64,000 bases of DNA from Bacteroidota bacterium. GTDB lineage: Bacteria; Bacteroidota; Bacteroidia; UKL13-3. A program made the position numbers and the translations under genes. Shown here in pieces: positions 4,358 through 54,733 of the stretch (positions are counted from its first letter, which is position 1; each line of letters begins with the position of its first letter). The notes below the pieces were generated by a model that worked only from the letters and a program-made list of their open reading frames with translations, did no database searches and was not told the origin of the DNA. The stretch is from NCBI GenBank assembly GCA_027491355.1, contig JAIXWI010000036.1:1-64000 (forward strand). Direction: 5' to 3'.

Positions 4358-5590
4358 TTATTCAAATCGAAGGGCTTCAATAGGGTCTAATTTTGATGCT
4401 TTGATAGCTGGGTAAATGCCACTGATTAAACCAACAAGTATACACAACACGATACCACTTCCCATCCATAACCAAGGCACGATGAATCCGCCACCCACCA
4501 GCGCAGAGACAATATTCCCTATACTGATTCCTAGAACAATGCCACCCAATCCACCTATTTGACAAATGACAATGGCTTCAATTAAGAATTGTTTTTTAAT
4601 TTCATTGCTGGTTGCACCAATGGCTTTTCTGATACCAATTTCTCGGGTTCTTTCTGTTACCGAAACCAACATGATATTCATCAAACCAACAGCTGCTCCT
4701 AATAAAGTAATCAAACCAATGATAGATGCAGCCATGGTCACATATTTGAGGTTATCAATTAAATCTTCAGAAACACTGTCGGCTTTAAACACTTCAAAAT
4801 TATTCGGAATCACAACAGGTAATTTTCTGATTTTCCTGAACAAGCTACTCGCCTCTTCAATGGCAAAATTAATTTGGGTTGCATCTTTGACCATTACAGT
4901 AATAACACTGCTCATATTGGGAGTAGAAAATGCCTGATAGGCCATATCAATTGGAACAATTACCAAACGGTCTCCACCAAATCCCATGCTTGAGCCTTTT
5001 TCTTTTAAAACACCAATAATTTTAAATTTTGCGCCCCCAATTAATATGGACTCGCCAACTGCTTCTTTGTTCCTGAATAATTTTTGTTTGATTTCTTTTC
5101 CAATCAATACATGGCTTGCTCCATGGTTGATTTCTTTGTCTTGAAAATTTCTACCTCTGTCTATTTCATAGCCAGCTACAGCCAAATAATTGGCATCAGC
5201 ACCCATTACCATCACATTCGGATCTGTTTTCAAAGATTCATGTTTGATGGTGCTTGCAAAACTCGCATTCACGCTCATAGAAACAGTAGCAGGAAAATGA
5301 AAATCATTTGCAAAAGTTTTGGCCTCTGTATAAGAAATGGTTTTATACTTTTTTTGCTGTCTATTTTTACCGGAAAAATGAACACTTTGACCTTTATTTT
5401 TAATGTTAAAGGTATTGGCACCCATGCTAGAAAAATTTGAGTTGATAGAAGCTTTGATGCCATCAATTGCCGTTAAAATACCTACCAAGGCCATGATCCC
5501 TAATGAAATAATCAATGCAGTAATGACAGCCCTCAAAGCATTGCCCCTGATAGAATTGATTGCAATCCCTATGTTTTCTTTGATAGTCAT
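4358..5590 (-). CDS. MacB/FtsX-type ABC transporter permease
   Basis: The 410-residue protein has one N-terminal membrane helix (residues about 20-42), a large periplasmic MacB_PCD-like domain, and three C-terminal helices including the ERTREIGIRKAIGA signature of the FtsX/MacB permease family. Such permeases work as mechanotransmission ABC systems in lipoprotein or peptide export. No partner ATPase gene is adjacent here, so it must pair with an ATPase encoded elsewhere. Its ATG overlaps the stop of the upstream IscA-fold gene by 4 bases (ATGA), which implies translational coupling. Confidence 0.9.
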   Translation of the reverse strand: MTIKENIGIAINSIRGNALRAVITALIISLGIMALVGILTAIDGIKASINSNFSSMGANTFNIKNKGQSVHFSGKNRQQKKYKTISYTEAKTFANDFHFPATVSMSVNASFASTIKHESLKTDPNVMVMGADANYLAVAGYEIDRGRNFQDKEINHGASHVLIGKEIKQKLFRNKEAVGESILIGGAKFKIIGVLKEKGSSMGFGGDRLVIVPIDMAYQAFSTPNMSSVITVMVKDATQINFAIEEASSLFRKIRKLPVVIPNNFEVFKADSVSEDLIDNLKYVTMAASIIGLITLLGAAVGLMNIMLVSVTERTREIGIRKAIGATSNEIKKQFLIEAIVICQIGGLGGIVLGISIGNIVSALVGGGFIVPWLWMGSGIVLCILVGLISGIYPAIKASKLDPIEALRFE

Positions 5591-5895
5591 GATTGGGAAT
5601 TGAGTTGATTGCGTTCAACCAATTGAAACCCTTTTTTGTCATTCTTTTCAACAAAATCAATGACCATACCTGCAAAGAAAAAAACCTGACCTGGGTGGTA
5701 AATCAATTGAATGCCATCGACTTCCGATTGTTGGTCTTTTTCAGTAGGTTCATCAAAACCAATGACCAAACCTTTATCTGTTGCATTTTTCTGTTTGATA
5801 CCAATTCTTAGCAAATGTGTAGCAGGCACCATGAGTTGATTTCGGTATGCTGATATGGCTTGTTTAGCTGCTGCTGTAAATTCAATGAGTTGCAT
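5587..5895 (-). CDS. HesB/IscA-fold protein lacking cysteines
   Basis: 102 residues align by eye with the A-type iron-sulfur carrier fold: an N-terminal FTAAAKQAI helix, LLRIGIK strand, a GFDEPTEKD segment matching the EFVDEPTPED region of IscA, then GIQLIYHPGQVFFFAGMVIDF and GFQL. All three cysteines that bind the cluster in IscA/SufA are missing and the protein contains no cysteine at all. It cannot be a standard cluster carrier; a structural or regulatory role is possible. It sits between pyrD (1-base gap upstream) and the ABC permease (4-base overlap downstream). Family assignment is by pattern recognition and should be confirmed by profile search. Confidence 0.7.
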   Translation of the reverse strand: MQLIEFTAAAKQAISAYRNQLMVPATHLLRIGIKQKNATDKGLVIGFDEPTEKDQQSEVDGIQLIYHPGQVFFFAGMVIDFVEKNDKKGFQLVERNQLNSQS

Positions 5896-50118: not shown

Positions 50119-50604
50119 TTAAATGGCAATCATGTCTATTTTGTCTATTCCGAAACCATAGCCATTGGGAGTAATTTCTTGGACAATAAAACCCATTTTT
50201 TCATAAAACTGATAAGTATGTTGGCTGGTGCCTAGTGTGATTTGATGGGCAGGCCATTTTTCGTTGATAAGCGCCTTTCTGAATTCAAACAATGCTGTTC
50301 CCAAACCCTGATGATGGCAATCTGCATGAACCATTCCCCAAGCCAATCTGGCTTCAGAAATTCCTTTGACTATATAAAAGCCTGCACAAGCCAACACCTT
50401 TTCATCTTCATTGACTGCAACAAAATAAGCATCAGATACAGCATCTGAATAAGTTGGACTTTCATAGTCAGCCCCCCCAGATTGGTGCATCAACCATTTG
50501 ACAAATAATGACCTTTCAGATGCATCAAAGTACTTGGGACAGTTGCTATCAAAAATGGCCAAACTAGCTTGTTTGTAATGGTCTTTATAGGGTCTTATAT
50601 TCAT
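50119..50604 (-). CDS. GNAT family N-acetyltransferase
   Basis: 161 residues with the GNAT acetyl-CoA signature HHQGLGTALFEF near residues 96-107 and QFYEKMGF near 131-138. It transfers acetyl to an amine of unknown substrate. Its ATG overlaps the stop of a 44-codon frame (ATGA), consistent with coupling, and the galactanase gene starts 1-13 bases after its stop. Confidence 0.88.
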   Translation of the reverse strand: MNIRPYKDHYKQASLAIFDSNCPKYFDASERSLFVKWLMHQSGGADYESPTYSDAVSDAYFVAVNEDEKVLACAGFYIVKGISEARLAWGMVHADCHHQGLGTALFEFRKALINEKWPAHQITLGTSQHTYQFYEKMGFIVQEITPNGYGFGIDKIDMIAI

Positions 50605-50735
50605 TTTAATGAGGTTGCGATTATGCGAACTACAGCACTCCTACCCTTGTGGTATATGCCTTCATTCAATTCAACAATTTCTTCTTTCAAACAACTGAAT
50701 TCAAAATTATAAAAATCGGCTTTCAGTTCTTCCAT
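50601..50735 (-). CDS. candidate 44-residue small protein
   Basis: An ATG at 50735 opens a 44-codon frame whose product runs MEELKADFYNFEFSC to IIATSLK. It overlaps the last 13 bases of the upstream 100-residue gene and its TGA overlaps the GNAT start codon. This fits translational coupling but no family is recognised and there is no Shine-Dalgarno. It may instead be the degenerate or frameshifted end of the upstream gene. Confidence 0.4.
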   Translation of the reverse strand: MEELKADFYNFEFSCLKEEIVELNEGIYHKGRSAVVRIIATSLK

Positions 50736-51025
50736 TGTTCCCAGTATTGATTGATTTCTTCTTGGTTCTTGCATTGAATCATCAATGAGGTGACTGTATT
50801 GAATTCAAATAAATGGCTCGAACTCATGGCTCTGTATTTTTTTAATGCTAACGCAAATTGTACCATTTCAACTGTGGTTTCAGGAGTTGGGCTCATGGTA
50901 CTTACATGCAGTATCTTTGAATTTGGAATGATAGTCACATCATGATTGGCAGCAGCAATGTTATTTTCATTGAACCTAAAATTCAAATGTATTTCCGGAC
51001 TGCTAAAGGTTTGTATTGCACTCAT
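50723..51025 (-). CDS. hypothetical protein, 100 residues
   Basis: No signal or membrane helix. Sequence such as NFRFNENNIAAANHDVTIIPNSKILHV and EEINQYWEQWKN gives no recognisable family. Neighbouring frames are tightly packed: it follows the small lipoprotein gene by 6 bases and overlaps the candidate 44-codon frame. Reality is supported by position in the operon-like row only. Confidence 0.55.
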   Translation of the reverse strand: MSAIQTFSSPEIHLNFRFNENNIAAANHDVTIIPNSKILHVSTMSPTPETTVEMVQFALALKKYRAMSSSHLFEFNTVTSLMIQCKNQEEINQYWEQWKN

Positions 51026-51031
51026 TAATTT

Positions 51032-51277
51032 TTAGCTTTTTCTTCTTCTGTATTTTCCTCTTGTATGGTAATAATACCTCGAACGTGCTCTGTTTTTAAA
51101 GGCATTTTTATGGGTACTGACTGATTTTCTAAAATGTCCCTTCCTAAACCTTCCTCTTGAATCAATTGAAGGGGAAACATAACGGTAATTGCCTTTATCG
51201 TTTTCATCTAAAGGTTCAATATCGCATGCATTTAACAAGACACAAAGAAAAAAAACAACTCCGAATTTCCATTTCAT
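51032..51277 (-). CDS. small lipoprotein with a strongly basic tail
   Basis: 81 residues: signal helix (FGVVFFLCVLLNAC) with lipobox LNAC and lipidated cysteine at 18, then a short acidic stretch (DIEPLDENDKGN) and a C-terminal half extremely rich in Arg, Lys and Tyr (RSRYYYHTRGKYRRRKS). The basic tail could contact nucleic acid or anionic surface polymer. A competing frame at 51025-51207 on the same strand has no such features. Nothing similar is known to me. Confidence 0.6.
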   Translation of the reverse strand: MKWKFGVVFFLCVLLNACDIEPLDENDKGNYRYVSPSIDSRGRFRKGHFRKSVSTHKNAFKNRARSRYYYHTRGKYRRRKS

Positions 51278-51365
51278 AGGGCTGCAAATTGAGGTTTTTA
51301 AAATCTTGCTGAATTTAATTGAAATGCAGCAAATGCAAAATAATTACTAGCAACTAAAAAAAATC

Positions 51366-51397
51366 TTGCAAAATTAAATCTAACAGTTTTACCTTTG
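51366..51397 (+). promoter_or_regulatory. Bacteroidota-type promoter (TTG, 21 bases, TACCTTTG)
   Basis: TTG at 51366-51368 and an exact TAnnTTTG box TACCTTTG at 51390-51397 are separated by 21 bases, the best -33/-7 pair found in the window. Transcription would start near 51404, about 250 bases before the next good start codon. Confidence 0.6.
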
Positions 51398-51651
51398 TAG
51401 TGCATTAAGAATTCTTGAAAAAGAATACCAACCGAGTTAGATCCACGGTGGTAGAGCAATGCGGACCTCATGGTCAAAAAATCTAGAAATAACCCTTCCT
51501 GATTTTAGCAAAAGCCTTCTTCATGCAAAAAATATTTTTGCCATGAAAAAAATCTATTGTATCCGTTTGCCATCTGAGCTAAACAAACACCTGAAACACT
51601 TTAACCCTTTGTTAAAGCTAACAACTCATCTACTCATTCTAAGAAAATAAC
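51398..51651 (+). ncRNA. candidate long leader or small RNA upstream of two unknown genes
   Basis: After the promoter the sequence forms recognisable local pairs: ATTCTT and AAGAAT around a GAAA tetraloop at 51411-51426, and GACC with GGTC around TCAT at 51464-51475. The open frame at 51459-51650 lacks recognisable features and may be chance. It could be a structured 5-prime leader or a separate small RNA; a terminator with a T-run is not seen. Confidence 0.35.
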
Positions 51652-52020
51652 ATGAAACAAACATCAAAAAAAAACGTAGCCAGCCTGAGCTACAAAAACA
51701 AAAAGGCAGCAAACTTGGCAATTGAATTGGTTGAATTACCATCACCGTATTTACATGTCAATAAAAATCAGATTGCTGAAGACAGAGGTCTGCTCATTCA
51801 TTGTAAACATGGGCATTTGAACACCCTCATTGATTTGTACGGCATCAAAGAAAGTTTGTTGTTGTATTTTAATGAAAACAAACAATTTACTGGCGCCATA
51901 GCAGTGAACAAAAAAGCCAGACAGGTTTACCAAGTATCGGTACAACAGCGCTATGTATTGTTGGTAAAAGGAAACATCAGTACAATCACCAGTCAGTTAA
52001 ATGGCATTCAATATTTGTAA
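51652..52020 (+). CDS. hypothetical protein, 122 residues
   Basis: 122 residues, no signal peptide or membrane helix. The first 20 residues are very basic (KQTSKKNVASLSYKNKK). The rest is mixed alpha/beta with phrases such as LIHCKHGHLNTLIDLYGIK and QQRYVLLVKGNISTI. Family not recognised. It lies after a long leader and is followed 3 bases later by a second unknown gene, so the pair looks like an operon. Confidence 0.7.
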   Translation: MKQTSKKNVASLSYKNKKAANLAIELVELPSPYLHVNKNQIAEDRGLLIHCKHGHLNTLIDLYGIKESLLLYFNENKQFTGAIAVNKKARQVYQVSVQQRYVLLVKGNISTITSQLNGIQYL

Positions 52021-52023
52021 ACC

Positions 52024-52329
52024 ATGATAGATTATTCAAAACTCAGCAGAGAATTCAGGGAATACCATGCAGCCTGTACTGACAAAGAATTGTTGCGTTG
52101 CTACAACATGGAAATTACCAAACAAGGATGGGGCGCTAGCCGTTCTTATTATTTGAGTTCTTTGCAATGTGAAATGCACAATAGAGGCTGGGATATATCA
52201 GTCATTCGCAATGAAAGTGGAGGATTCAATTTGCATCCGAGTAACAATTGTAAACTTGAAGGAAAGCGACTGGTAAAAACCAATTTGATTTATACGTACA
52301 AGGATTTTGAAAACAATCCTGATTTGTAA
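52024..52329 (+). CDS. hypothetical protein, 101 residues
   Basis: 101 residues, soluble, with the phrases TDKELLRCYNMEITKQGWGASR and YLSSLQCEMHNRGWDIS. No family is recognised. It follows the previous gene by 3 bases and is ended by the terminator at 52337-52367, giving a compact two-gene unit. Confidence 0.7.
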   Translation: MIDYSKLSREFREYHAACTDKELLRCYNMEITKQGWGASRSYYLSSLQCEMHNRGWDISVIRNESGGFNLHPSNNCKLEGKRLVKTNLIYTYKDFENNPDL

Positions 52330-52336
52330 ATTCTGA

Positions 52337-52367
52337 AAAAATGGGGGTAATTTTTATCCCCATTTTT
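52337..52367 (+). terminator. terminator after the two-gene unit
   Basis: AAAAATGGGG at 52337-52346 pairs with CCCCATTTTT at 52358-52367; the bases between can extend the stem. The T-tract after the C-run fits an intrinsic terminator for the 52024 gene. Confidence 0.8.
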
Positions 52368-52438
52368 ACAATTTTCAAGCCTTTGTTTTGTTGAAATCTT
52401 AAAACCCAATGCTGAACTTTCTGCCTTATTTTCGTAAG

Positions 52439-54733
52439 GTGGATTACCTTCAAACTTTGAATCCGGCTCAGAGAGCTGCTGTTGAACAAATTAACGGACC
52501 TGTGATGATTGTTGCAGGTGCAGGTTCTGGAAAAACCAGGGTATTGACTTACCGCATTGTACACATGCTCAGGCATGATGTAGATCCTTTCCAAATTTTG
52601 TCTTTGACCTTTACCAACAAAGCTGCAAAAGAAATGAGGCACCGGGTTCAGCAAGCTGTTGGAACGGAAGCTAAAAATATCTGGATGGGTACGTTTCACA
52701 GTATTTTTTCACGCATTTTAAGATCTGAAAGTGAACGATTGGGCTATCCCAAAAACTTTACCATTTACGACAATGATGACAGTAAAAGTTTGATCAAAAC
52801 CATCGTCAATGAAATGAACCTAGACGAAAAATTGTACAAACCAGGCAACATGTTAAGCCGCATTTCATCTGCAAAAAATGGACTGATTACTGCCGAGGAA
52901 TACTTAATGAACGATGAGCTGTCTGCTTATGACAACGAAAGTGGCAGACCTAAATTTGGGATCCTTTTTAAAACTTACCAAGACCGCTGTTTCAGAGCTG
53001 GAGCAATGGATTTTGACGATTTATTGGTAAACACACATAAACTTTTTACCAATCATTTAGATGTGCTAAACAAGTACCAACATTTGTTCCGTTACATCAT
53101 GGTGGATGAGTTTCAAGATACCAACCATGCACAGTATATGATTGTAAAAAAATTAGCTGCAGTGCATCAAAACATTGCTGTTGTTGGGGATGATGCGCAA
53201 AGTATTTATGCCTTCAGGGGTGCTAACATTAAGAACATTTTGGGTTTTCAGAAAGATTTCCCAGACGTCAAAACTTTTAAGTTAGAGCAAAACTACAGAA
53301 GTACGCAAACCATTGTGAATGCAGCTTCTAGTGTGATTGATAAAAACAAGGACCAAATAAAAAAAGAAGTTTGGACGGACAATGAGAATGGCGACCGCAT
53401 TAAGGTGATCAAAGCATTGACCGATAACGAAGAAGGCAAATTGGTTGCTTCATCTATTTTCCAAGAGAAGATGAACAGCCATGTGATGAATGAAGATTTT
53501 GCTATTTTGTACAGAACCAATGCGCAAAGCAGAGCGCTTGAAGAAGCTTTAAGAAAAATGAACATTCCTTATAAAATTTATGGAGGCATGTCATTCTACC
53601 AACGCAAAGAAATCAAAGATTTGCTGGCTTATTTCAGGGTTGTATTGAACCCTAACGATGAAGAAGCTTTGAAACGCATTATCAATTACCCTACTAGAGG
53701 TATCGGTAAAACAAGTATGGACAAGCTGATGGTACTTGCAGACCGAGAACAAAAAAGCCTTTGGGCAGTCATGGAAAACTTGGAACAATATGGCATCAAA
53801 GGTGCAACTGCTATTGCTGATTTTGTAACCATGATTCAAAGCTTTCAAACACTCTTGAATAAAAATGCTTATGATGTGGCCATGTACATAGCTAAACAGA
53901 GTGGTGTTTTAAAAAACCTTTACGAGGACAAAACCGTTGAAGGCATAGCCCGCTATGAAAACATTGAAGAATTACTGAGTGGTATCAAAGAATTCAGTGT
54001 GCAAGAAACAGCAGACGACGATGGGGTTTTGGAGCCTAAATTGTTAGCAGATTTCATGTCAGATGTGGCCTTGTTAACCAACGATGACCAAAACAAAAAT
54101 GAGGACAAAGACCATGTAAGTTTAATGACCATCCACTCTGCAAAAGGACTTGAATTTAAATATGTTTATGTGGTGGGATTAGAAGAAAATTTGTTCCCAT
54201 CTCAATTGGCTCTGAATAGCAGGCAAGAACTTGAAGAAGAAAGACGTTTGTTTTATGTGGCATTGACCCGTGCCATGAAAAAATTAACCTTGACCTTTGC
54301 AACATCTAGGTTCAGATTTGGCTCCATTGTATATGCAGAACCGAGCCGATTCCTTCAAGAAATCAGTCCTGAGTTTTTGAATTTTGAGCATACAACAAAC
54401 AAAGCCAACCAATCTGACAGCAACAATTTGGACAGAGGGGGTAGAACCTTGAGTGGATTACCCAAAAAGGTATTGTCCGGAGGACTGAAACCCCTTCCAA
54501 AAAGAAATGATTCAACCAGCAAACCGGCTGCAGCTCCAGATCCAGATTTTGTAGGAGATGATACTTCAAAATTGGCACAAGGCATGCATGTTGAACACCA
54601 AAGGTTTGGCAAAGGGATTGTTTTGCAAATTGATGGCGCCGGTGATAACCGAAAAGCAAACATTGAATTTGAAGCAAGCGGAAAAAAAATGCTGGTCTTG
54701 AAATTTGCTAAACTTAAAATTATTGGGGCTTAA
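52439..54733 (+). CDS. pcrA: UvrD/PcrA-type DNA helicase
   Basis: From the GTG at 52439 (764 residues) the protein opens V-D-Y-L-Q-T-L-N, the usual beginning of this family; an ATG at 52409 would add ten residues and is the alternative. Superfamily 1A motifs: AGAGSGKTRVL (Walker A), VDEFQDTNHAQY (motif II), GDDAQSIYAFRGA (motif III), LEQNYRSTQTI (motif IV), SLMTIHSAKGLEF (motif V) and RRLFYVALTRA (motif VI). The C-terminus has a Tudor-like GMHVEHQRFGKG segment. Roles: DNA repair and replication restart. Its stop overlaps the convergent coaE stop by 4 bases. Confidence 0.95.
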   Translation: MDYLQTLNPAQRAAVEQINGPVMIVAGAGSGKTRVLTYRIVHMLRHDVDPFQILSLTFTNKAAKEMRHRVQQAVGTEAKNIWMGTFHSIFSRILRSESERLGYPKNFTIYDNDDSKSLIKTIVNEMNLDEKLYKPGNMLSRISSAKNGLITAEEYLMNDELSAYDNESGRPKFGILFKTYQDRCFRAGAMDFDDLLVNTHKLFTNHLDVLNKYQHLFRYIMVDEFQDTNHAQYMIVKKLAAVHQNIAVVGDDAQSIYAFRGANIKNILGFQKDFPDVKTFKLEQNYRSTQTIVNAASSVIDKNKDQIKKEVWTDNENGDRIKVIKALTDNEEGKLVASSIFQEKMNSHVMNEDFAILYRTNAQSRALEEALRKMNIPYKIYGGMSFYQRKEIKDLLAYFRVVLNPNDEEALKRIINYPTRGIGKTSMDKLMVLADREQKSLWAVMENLEQYGIKGATAIADFVTMIQSFQTLLNKNAYDVAMYIAKQSGVLKNLYEDKTVEGIARYENIEELLSGIKEFSVQETADDDGVLEPKLLADFMSDVALLTNDDQNKNEDKDHVSLMTIHSAKGLEFKYVYVVGLEENLFPSQLALNSRQELEEERRLFYVALTRAMKKLTLTFATSRFRFGSIVYAEPSRFLQEISPEFLNFEHTTNKANQSDSNNLDRGGRTLSGLPKKVLSGGLKPLPKRNDSTSKPAAAPDPDFVGDDTSKLAQGMHVEHQRFGKGIVLQIDGAGDNRKANIEFEASGKKMLVLKFAKLKIIGA

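Follow-up and report, generated by a model that had tools for sequence, protein, structure and literature searches.

A predicted SAM-I/IV riboswitch ahead of two orphan genes in Bacteroidota, one of which shares its domain with extended MetK proteins

The closest described counterpart of the locus reported here is the SAM-I/IV riboswitch (Rfam RF01725; Weinberg et al., 2010, PMC2864571). In the order to which our genome belongs, this aptamer is present in 22 of the 62 genomes searched. Of the 28 sites listed there, 21 lie before metK, six (ours included) before homologues of a small gene termed gene 1 here, and one before another gene; these downstream genes were assigned by reading the first ORFs and, for L017, by its coding sequence. 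The 248-aa protein encoded behind a SAM-I/IV aptamer on the minus strand of L020 (G038) is unrelated and belongs to no Pfam family. Our copy is found in a 64,000-nt stretch of Bacteroidota DNA (hereafter the window), and the genome that carries it (2.44 Mb, 44 contigs) has one further RF01725 copy, on contig C38, directly before metK. With a full-length match above the cut-off, it is of one class with the copies that precede metK in its own genome and order. It differs from them in its targets, two orphan genes in place of metK, which it would control, and in its expression platform, which would act one step ahead of the first gene by hiding the start of a short ORF.

Two further families bear on the products of these genes. 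The DUF192 proteins (PF02643; structures 3PJY and 3M7A) have a fold that gene 1 is predicted to share; unlike them, the gene 1 family shows neither a Pfam match nor a profile-profile relation to DUF192 sequences. No assigned role for DUF192 was found among open-access articles listed as mentioning it. The other comparison is with MetK proteins bearing a C-terminal extension (L109 and L076), relative to which gene 2 of the window appears as the extension domain alone.

The aptamer and its transcription unit

RF01725 is the sole Rfam 15 family that matches the 64-kb window above its cut-off: the aptamer lies on the plus strand at 51397-51491, scores 62.5 bits against a cut-off of 41.1 (E 5.9e-8) and covers the model in full (1-99 of 99). 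This is the highest RF01725 score among the 28 sites listed in the order, above those of the metK copies. Helix P1 has its 5' strand at 51402-51411 and its 3' strand at 51458-51462, both on the plus strand. A pseudoknot between the P3 loop and the 3' tail is expected for this class, and on the same strand of the window a candidate of five Watson-Crick pairs joins the P3 loop TAGAT (51438-51442) to ATCTA (51481-51485). Class-wide the pseudoknot signal is modest: the longest run averages 3.40 over 136 distinct loop/tail combinations, whereas after permutation of the tails the average is 2.90 and the highest value in 50 permutations 3.04. The leader spans 250 nt (51402-51651); the stretch 51400-51651 folds better than its shuffles (z -2.74; 4 of 200 shuffles as good), and the minimum-energy fold of the whole leader lacks P1 and displays no SAM-bound form. 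The identification of the leader as a SAM-I/IV riboswitch is as firm as sequence can make it, and the RNA would be expected to bind SAM.

The aptamer is part of a complete small transcription unit at 51365-52367, comprising a promoter box, the leader, two genes and an intrinsic terminator. The promoter is of the Bacteroidota type, with CTTG at 51365-51368 and TACCTTTG at 51390-51397 on the plus strand, as judged from the sequence and the published consensus. The flavobacterial consensus TAnnTTTG is placed at -12 to -5 (PMC9723704), so the RNA probably starts near 51402, the first base of P1. A box just 5' of P1 recurs in leaders of the gene 1 type, in its exact TAnnTTTG form in 17 of 35 and in a relaxed form in 32. 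A generic sigma-70 scan of 50400-53400 gave 11 sites versus 9.6 +/- 3.3 in shuffles, none of them above chance. The unit closes just 3' of gene 2 with a plus-strand terminator hairpin at about 52337-52367 (-17.3 kcal/mol); it was not listed by a terminator scan that allowed only loops of 3-8 and applied rules of its own.

An earlier note, made from the sequence by a model, had anticipated much of this architecture. The promoter it placed 5' of the leader is the Bacteroidota box; the two small hairpins correspond to P2 of the aptamer and a start-codon hairpin at 51520-51547; the ORFs for proteins of 122 and 101 residues are present at 51652-52020 and 52024-52329, with the terminator it described behind them; and the regulatory RNA it suspected in the leader is accounted for by the RF01725 match. 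Its interval of about 250 bases without a convincing gene has the right length, though it may hold a short translated ORF (51543-51650).

Divergent to the riboswitch, the minus strand at 51032-51277 encodes a small Cys-containing lipoprotein-like protein of 81 aa with the motif '..RGRFRKGH.RK..ST.KNA.KN.ARSRYYYH'; this gene has the same divergent position in the window, G026 and G027, and also in G403, from another family (L054:8975-9211). Beside it, at 50723-51025 on the same strand, lies a 3-dmu-9_3-mt family protein of 100 aa, versus 185 aa in G026 and G027, which may be truncated in the window.

Competing pairings in the leaders

Between the aptamer and gene 1 the plus strand offers two structures that are mutually exclusive. 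The anti-P1 strand TTCTTCATGC at 51517-51526 can pair with the 5' P1 strand 51402-51411 at 9 of 10 positions and overlaps the 5' arm of the start-codon hairpin (51520-51547; 12 pairs and one bulge, fold of -8.5 kcal/mol), whose 3' arm contains the ATG at 51543-51545; other leaders are arranged alike. The comparison drew on 35 leaders, which are not independent, some being near copies: 28 from the pattern scan that stand before gene 1 homologues, together with those of the window, G026, G027, G011, G403, G754 and L131, the gene of the last running off its locus. The anti-P1 and 5' P1 strands can form at least 8 of 10 pairs in all 35 and at least 9 in 34. Three of these pairs change on both sides: pair 2 (19 TA, 8 CG, 7 TG, 1 unpaired), pair 6 (22 TA, 8 AT, 4 TG, 1 CG) and pair 7 (26 CG, 8 AT, 1 unpaired). 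The P1 strands of the two large classes pair well with their own linkers and poorly with those of the other class: GTATTTCGAA reaches a mean energy of -10.8 with its own 26 linkers and -3.6 with the other 8, while GCATTAAGAA reaches -8.6 with its own 8 and -4.1 with the other 26. L056, the only linker in a third class, does not discriminate: its pairing is good with each of the three P1 strands (-13.4, -10.6 and -8.8), the value of -8.8 being obtained even with the foreign GCATTAAGAA. When linkers were dinucleotide-shuffled, the pairing of 26 of the 35 leaders was matched by at most 2 of 200 shuffles; the figure was 25 of 200 for L165 and 11 of 200 for the window, which by itself is thus insufficient as proof of the pairing. 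Folding only the segment that runs from anti-P1 to the start gives, in 35 of 35 leaders, a hairpin that extends with its 3' arm to the start codon, a weak one in L163 (-2.6 kcal/mol) and L094 (-3.1 kcal/mol); within longer stretches L094, L134 and L163 fold otherwise. As one strand can serve only one of two partners at a time, the 5' P1 strand or the arm over the start codon, SAM should block translation. The predicted switching mechanism is well supported by this comparison of leaders, and the expression platform would couple ligand binding to expression.

The buried ATG at 51543 opens a plus-strand ORF of 35 codons (51543-51650), proposed from its translation as a coupling ORF, that stops 1 nt before gene 1. 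Its counterpart in G027 has 39 codons and runs into the gene 1 start, that in G026 overlaps gene 1, and the short ORFs are alike only over about their first ten codons. In G001, G011 and G050, unlike the window, the buried ATG is itself the start of gene 1. The short ORF would be translated, and its translation coupled to that of gene 1.

We favor the reading, with a probability of nearly 0.8, that the leader is a translational OFF switch for SAM, which would silence genes 1 and 2 when SAM is plentiful; it is the simplest reading of the two exclusive pairings. When SAM is scarce, the 5' P1 strand would pair with the anti-P1 strand, the start-codon hairpin would be blocked and ribosomes would start at the ATG at 51543; the short ORF, which stops beside gene 1, would then pass them on to genes 1 and 2. 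With SAM bound, P1 would close, the anti-P1 strand would become free and the hairpin would bury the ATG, leaving both genes silent.

The stable hairpin that follows the aptamer could also be taken as a device that ends transcription and leaves the start codon out of play, and such attenuation is common for SAM-I riboswitches of other phyla. Here, however, the hairpin extends no further than the start codon and has no T run behind it, which makes attenuation unlikely, and no terminator-like site is listed on the plus strand across 51402-51651; we regard this reading as improbable. The same lack of a terminator-like site ahead of gene 1 speaks against a stand-alone small RNA such as the 6S-type RNA entertained by the earlier note: the leader is indeed structured and close to its own promoter, but the Rfam covariance search returned no 6S family among 13 matches up to E 5, and a 6S-like RNA or another Rfam class for the leader was rejected on these grounds. 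To this alternative we give practically no credence. Another way to depart from the OFF switch would be for the aptamer to have changed its ligand or lost its function, so that the genes are constitutive or sense a relative of SAM; small variations in riboswitch cores can change the ligand, and SAM binding by the window RNA is a prediction from its sequence. That the window aptamer outscores the metK copies, and that the expression platform is intact in relatives, argue for a retained function, and a change of this kind seems very unlikely.

Two protein families and the link to MetK

Gene 1 (51652-52020, plus strand) encodes a 122-aa protein that is kept at 79% in the related genomes G026 and G027, and for which no Pfam or NCBIfam family lies above its curated cut-off and PHROG matches are weak. 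Protein-led searches found the family in 5 of 64 genomes of the order, 8 of 395 of the class and 5 of 395 of the phylum; these searches overlap and together give 13 loci, three weak class matches being left out. These matches, within proteins of 1113 to 1129 aa in three genomes (E 8e-6 to 7e-4), were set aside as probable chance. RF01725 lies directly upstream on the same strand at 9 of the 13 loci; both G186 copies and the second G168 copy lack an aptamer of their own, and the G525 locus starts too near the contig end for an upstream aptamer to be judged. The AlphaFold2 model, built with 18 sequences, is all-beta (pLDDT 86, pTM 0.80) and superimposes on 3PJY with a Z of 12.0 and an rmsd of 2.9 over 118 aligned residues, and on 3M7A with a Z of 10.3. 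A Bacteroidota DUF192 protein matches both structures by sequence (E 2.5e-18 for 3PJY and 2.1e-17 for 3M7A); hence the predicted fold of gene 1 is a DUF192-like beta fold. Sequence comparison yielded no such tie: the DUF192 Pfam profile matches none of the 18 family members up to E 5, hhalign of the gene 1 profile gave a probability of 0.2 versus a set of only five Bacteroidota DUF192 sequences, a PDB sequence search with the gene 1 profile returned nothing to E 10, and a search for DUF192 proteins in the genome itself found none. Septu PtuB (PADLOC PDLC00357) was considered for gene 1 and rejected, one of the 18 members matching it at E 3.6e-5. The gene 1 operon of L094 includes, on the minus strand at 5301-5852, a 184-aa protein that begins like the C-terminus of MetK ('PTAIYGHFG') and looks as if derived from a metK gene; it has no Pfam match at E 0.1.

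Gene 2 (52024-52329, plus strand) encodes a protein of 101 aa that is kept at 77% in G027 and matches no curated Pfam, NCBIfam or PHROGs family. In the close relative G026 the gene is broken near its C-terminus (L005/L006, G026:C11:7248-7549) and may therefore be dispensable there. Three helices and a beta hairpin make up its model (pLDDT 84, pTM 0.73), and comparison with the PDB gave no usable match (Foldseek best E 4.2; VIA best Z 3.0, 40 chains). The link to MetK comes from an HMM iterated from six stand-alone seeds, the window gene 2 among them and no MetK. It recognises the gene 2 domain in the C-terminal extension of the MetK of L109 (475 aa; residues 386-468, E 2.8e-16) and of L076 (473 aa; residues 391-467, E 4.3e-13), in both of which Pfam places all three SAM-synthetase domains before residue 368. 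The window protein alone finds these extensions by phmmer at about 1e-7 in a set of four. In L073 MetK is split over two ORFs and the gene 2 domain follows its C-terminal part, which brings the in-frame gene 2-MetK fusions to two complete genes and one split gene. The L109 and L076 fusion genes are themselves behind SAM-I/IV aptamers, and family members lie downstream of metK in L082 and L087. Elsewhere the family provides the first gene near SAM-I/IV aptamers (e.g. L072, L088, L104, L156, L166 and L171) or follows gene 1, as in the window (L094, L096, L100, L124, L162 and L167). Among these loci, L124 is from Flavobacterium aciduliphilum DSM 25663 and L156 from Sphingobacterium olei, both cultured.

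In the genome of the window the domain was detected only on contigs C28 and C41, and not in its metK. A protein-led search of 345 genomes matched gene 2 in three: this genome, G102, where the homologue has an aptamer just upstream, and G251, where the match is a weak fragment. The paralogue on C41 (L186, G000:C41:13576-13809) is without a SAM aptamer and adjoins an HNH endonuclease-type protein and a 'NRIPLFLGSQFGI' protein.

The earlier note had seen no recognised family in either protein, and the profile searches agree. The homologues of known function that it envisaged were found in part: the gene 2 domain is fused to MetK, and any function of its own is putative. Its view of the unit as something not yet described holds for the regulated gene families and their MetK link, and not for the RNA, which is of the known SAM-I/IV class.

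The wider set of aptamer loci and the proposed role

A pattern scan for the aptamer over a collection of 84,980 genomes and one viral stretch gave at least 126 sites. The 126 among the matches listed are followed by the gene 1 family (28), a weak match to it (3), metK (9), the end of the locus (4) or other genes (82). Within 4 kb downstream on the same strand, 67 of the 125 non-viral sites listed have at least one of nine recurrent families: gene 1 at 30 sites, gene 2 at 23, a 'GYGxFPY' family at 22, MetK at 16, an N-formylglutamate-amidohydrolase-like family at 11, DUF3293 at 9 and three more at fewer, all as raw counts over partly redundant sites. Counts from the HMM of a 'RIPLF' domain were dropped because it pulled in gene 1 through real fusions; the figure of 67 is without it, and only L170 had rested on it. 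Rfam confirms the aptamer above cut-off in 18 of 19 loci checked (L072 misses) and in a further 7 of 7 pattern-scan loci.

Several of these loci have features of their own. Aptamers occur in clusters: three at L076:3422-3949, 5' of the MetK fusion; four at L073:4890-6424, around metK and gene 2; and three at L064:1-903, with divergent operons. MoxR-like ATPase genes lie directly behind SAM-I/IV aptamers in L081, L108 and L115. The viral contig IMGVR_UViG_2898721816_000001 (L182) has one match to the aptamer pattern, with no downstream ORF called by the ORF script.

The gene content around the aptamers raises the alternative that genes 1 and 2 are parts of mobile or defence islands unrelated to SAM metabolism, for which the riboswitch serves as a promoter-like cassette. 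Copies of gene 1 do lie near C5 DNA methyltransferase genes (L058, L057, L094), SspB/SspC or SspC/SspD (L096, L052) and McrBC-like genes (L056, L053), and the family content differs from site to site. We compared 107 proteins of at least 150 aa around gene 1, from 23 of the 28 pattern-scan loci (leaving out the near copies or fragments L085, L133, L165, L174 and L180, and the gene 1 and gene 2 proteins themselves), with a control of 78 proteins taken from seven metK-type loci and the window. With E limited to 1e-20, the gene 1 loci have at least three cytosine methyltransferases and at least two SspB among the first 25 of 92 families, versus at least a UvrD-type protein (GajB) and one RT/helicase model among the first 25 of 32 families in the control, which is small, uneven and too limited to establish defence enrichment. 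Against an island origin, the neighbourhoods in the window, G026, G001, G011, G050 and G403 are housekeeping-like, and the gene 2 domain is fused to MetK and found in metK operons. Moreover, searches at E 1e-3 matched the gene 2 homologue of L104 to no phage or plasmid record and the gene 1 homologue of L162 to no plasmid record. We therefore consider the island explanation doubtful.

The reading we prefer places both proteins, by reasoned inference, in a SAM-shortage response linked to MetK. Less certainly, the products would be small accessory proteins of SAM shortage that cooperate with or act upon the machinery by which SAM is made or used, and gene 2 may be a stand-alone version of the MetK extension domain. 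Relatives of gene 2 are fused to the SAM-making enzyme itself, an indication of a group of SAM-shortage proteins not described before; these small, variable accessory proteins linked to MetK would together make up a SAM-shortage regulon. On a more speculative note, Bacteroidota might possess a SAM-shortage regulon of fast-evolving small proteins that act as exchangeable partners of SAM synthetase and may protect or retune MetK and methylation-dependent defence. Its putative members, proposed just as tentatively, would be gene 1, gene 2, the 'GYGxFPY', N-formylglutamate-amidohydrolase-like and DUF3293 families, and others. Phage enzymes that destroy SAM exist, and a fall in SAM brought about in this way may be one example of a trigger.

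In the open-access literature, the supplementary gene lists of PMC2864571 aside, we found no genes of these families under a SAM riboswitch. What is new in this locus is its targets: a known sensor is attached to undescribed small protein families linked to MetK. A metabolite sensor whose ligand is known gives direct access to proteins without an assigned function: both genes are expected to respond to SAM. SAM synthetase becomes a concrete candidate partner through the occurrence of the gene 2 domain in MetK fusions. If the regulon is real across the phylum, it would represent a layer of SAM control that is hidden from enzyme-based annotation.
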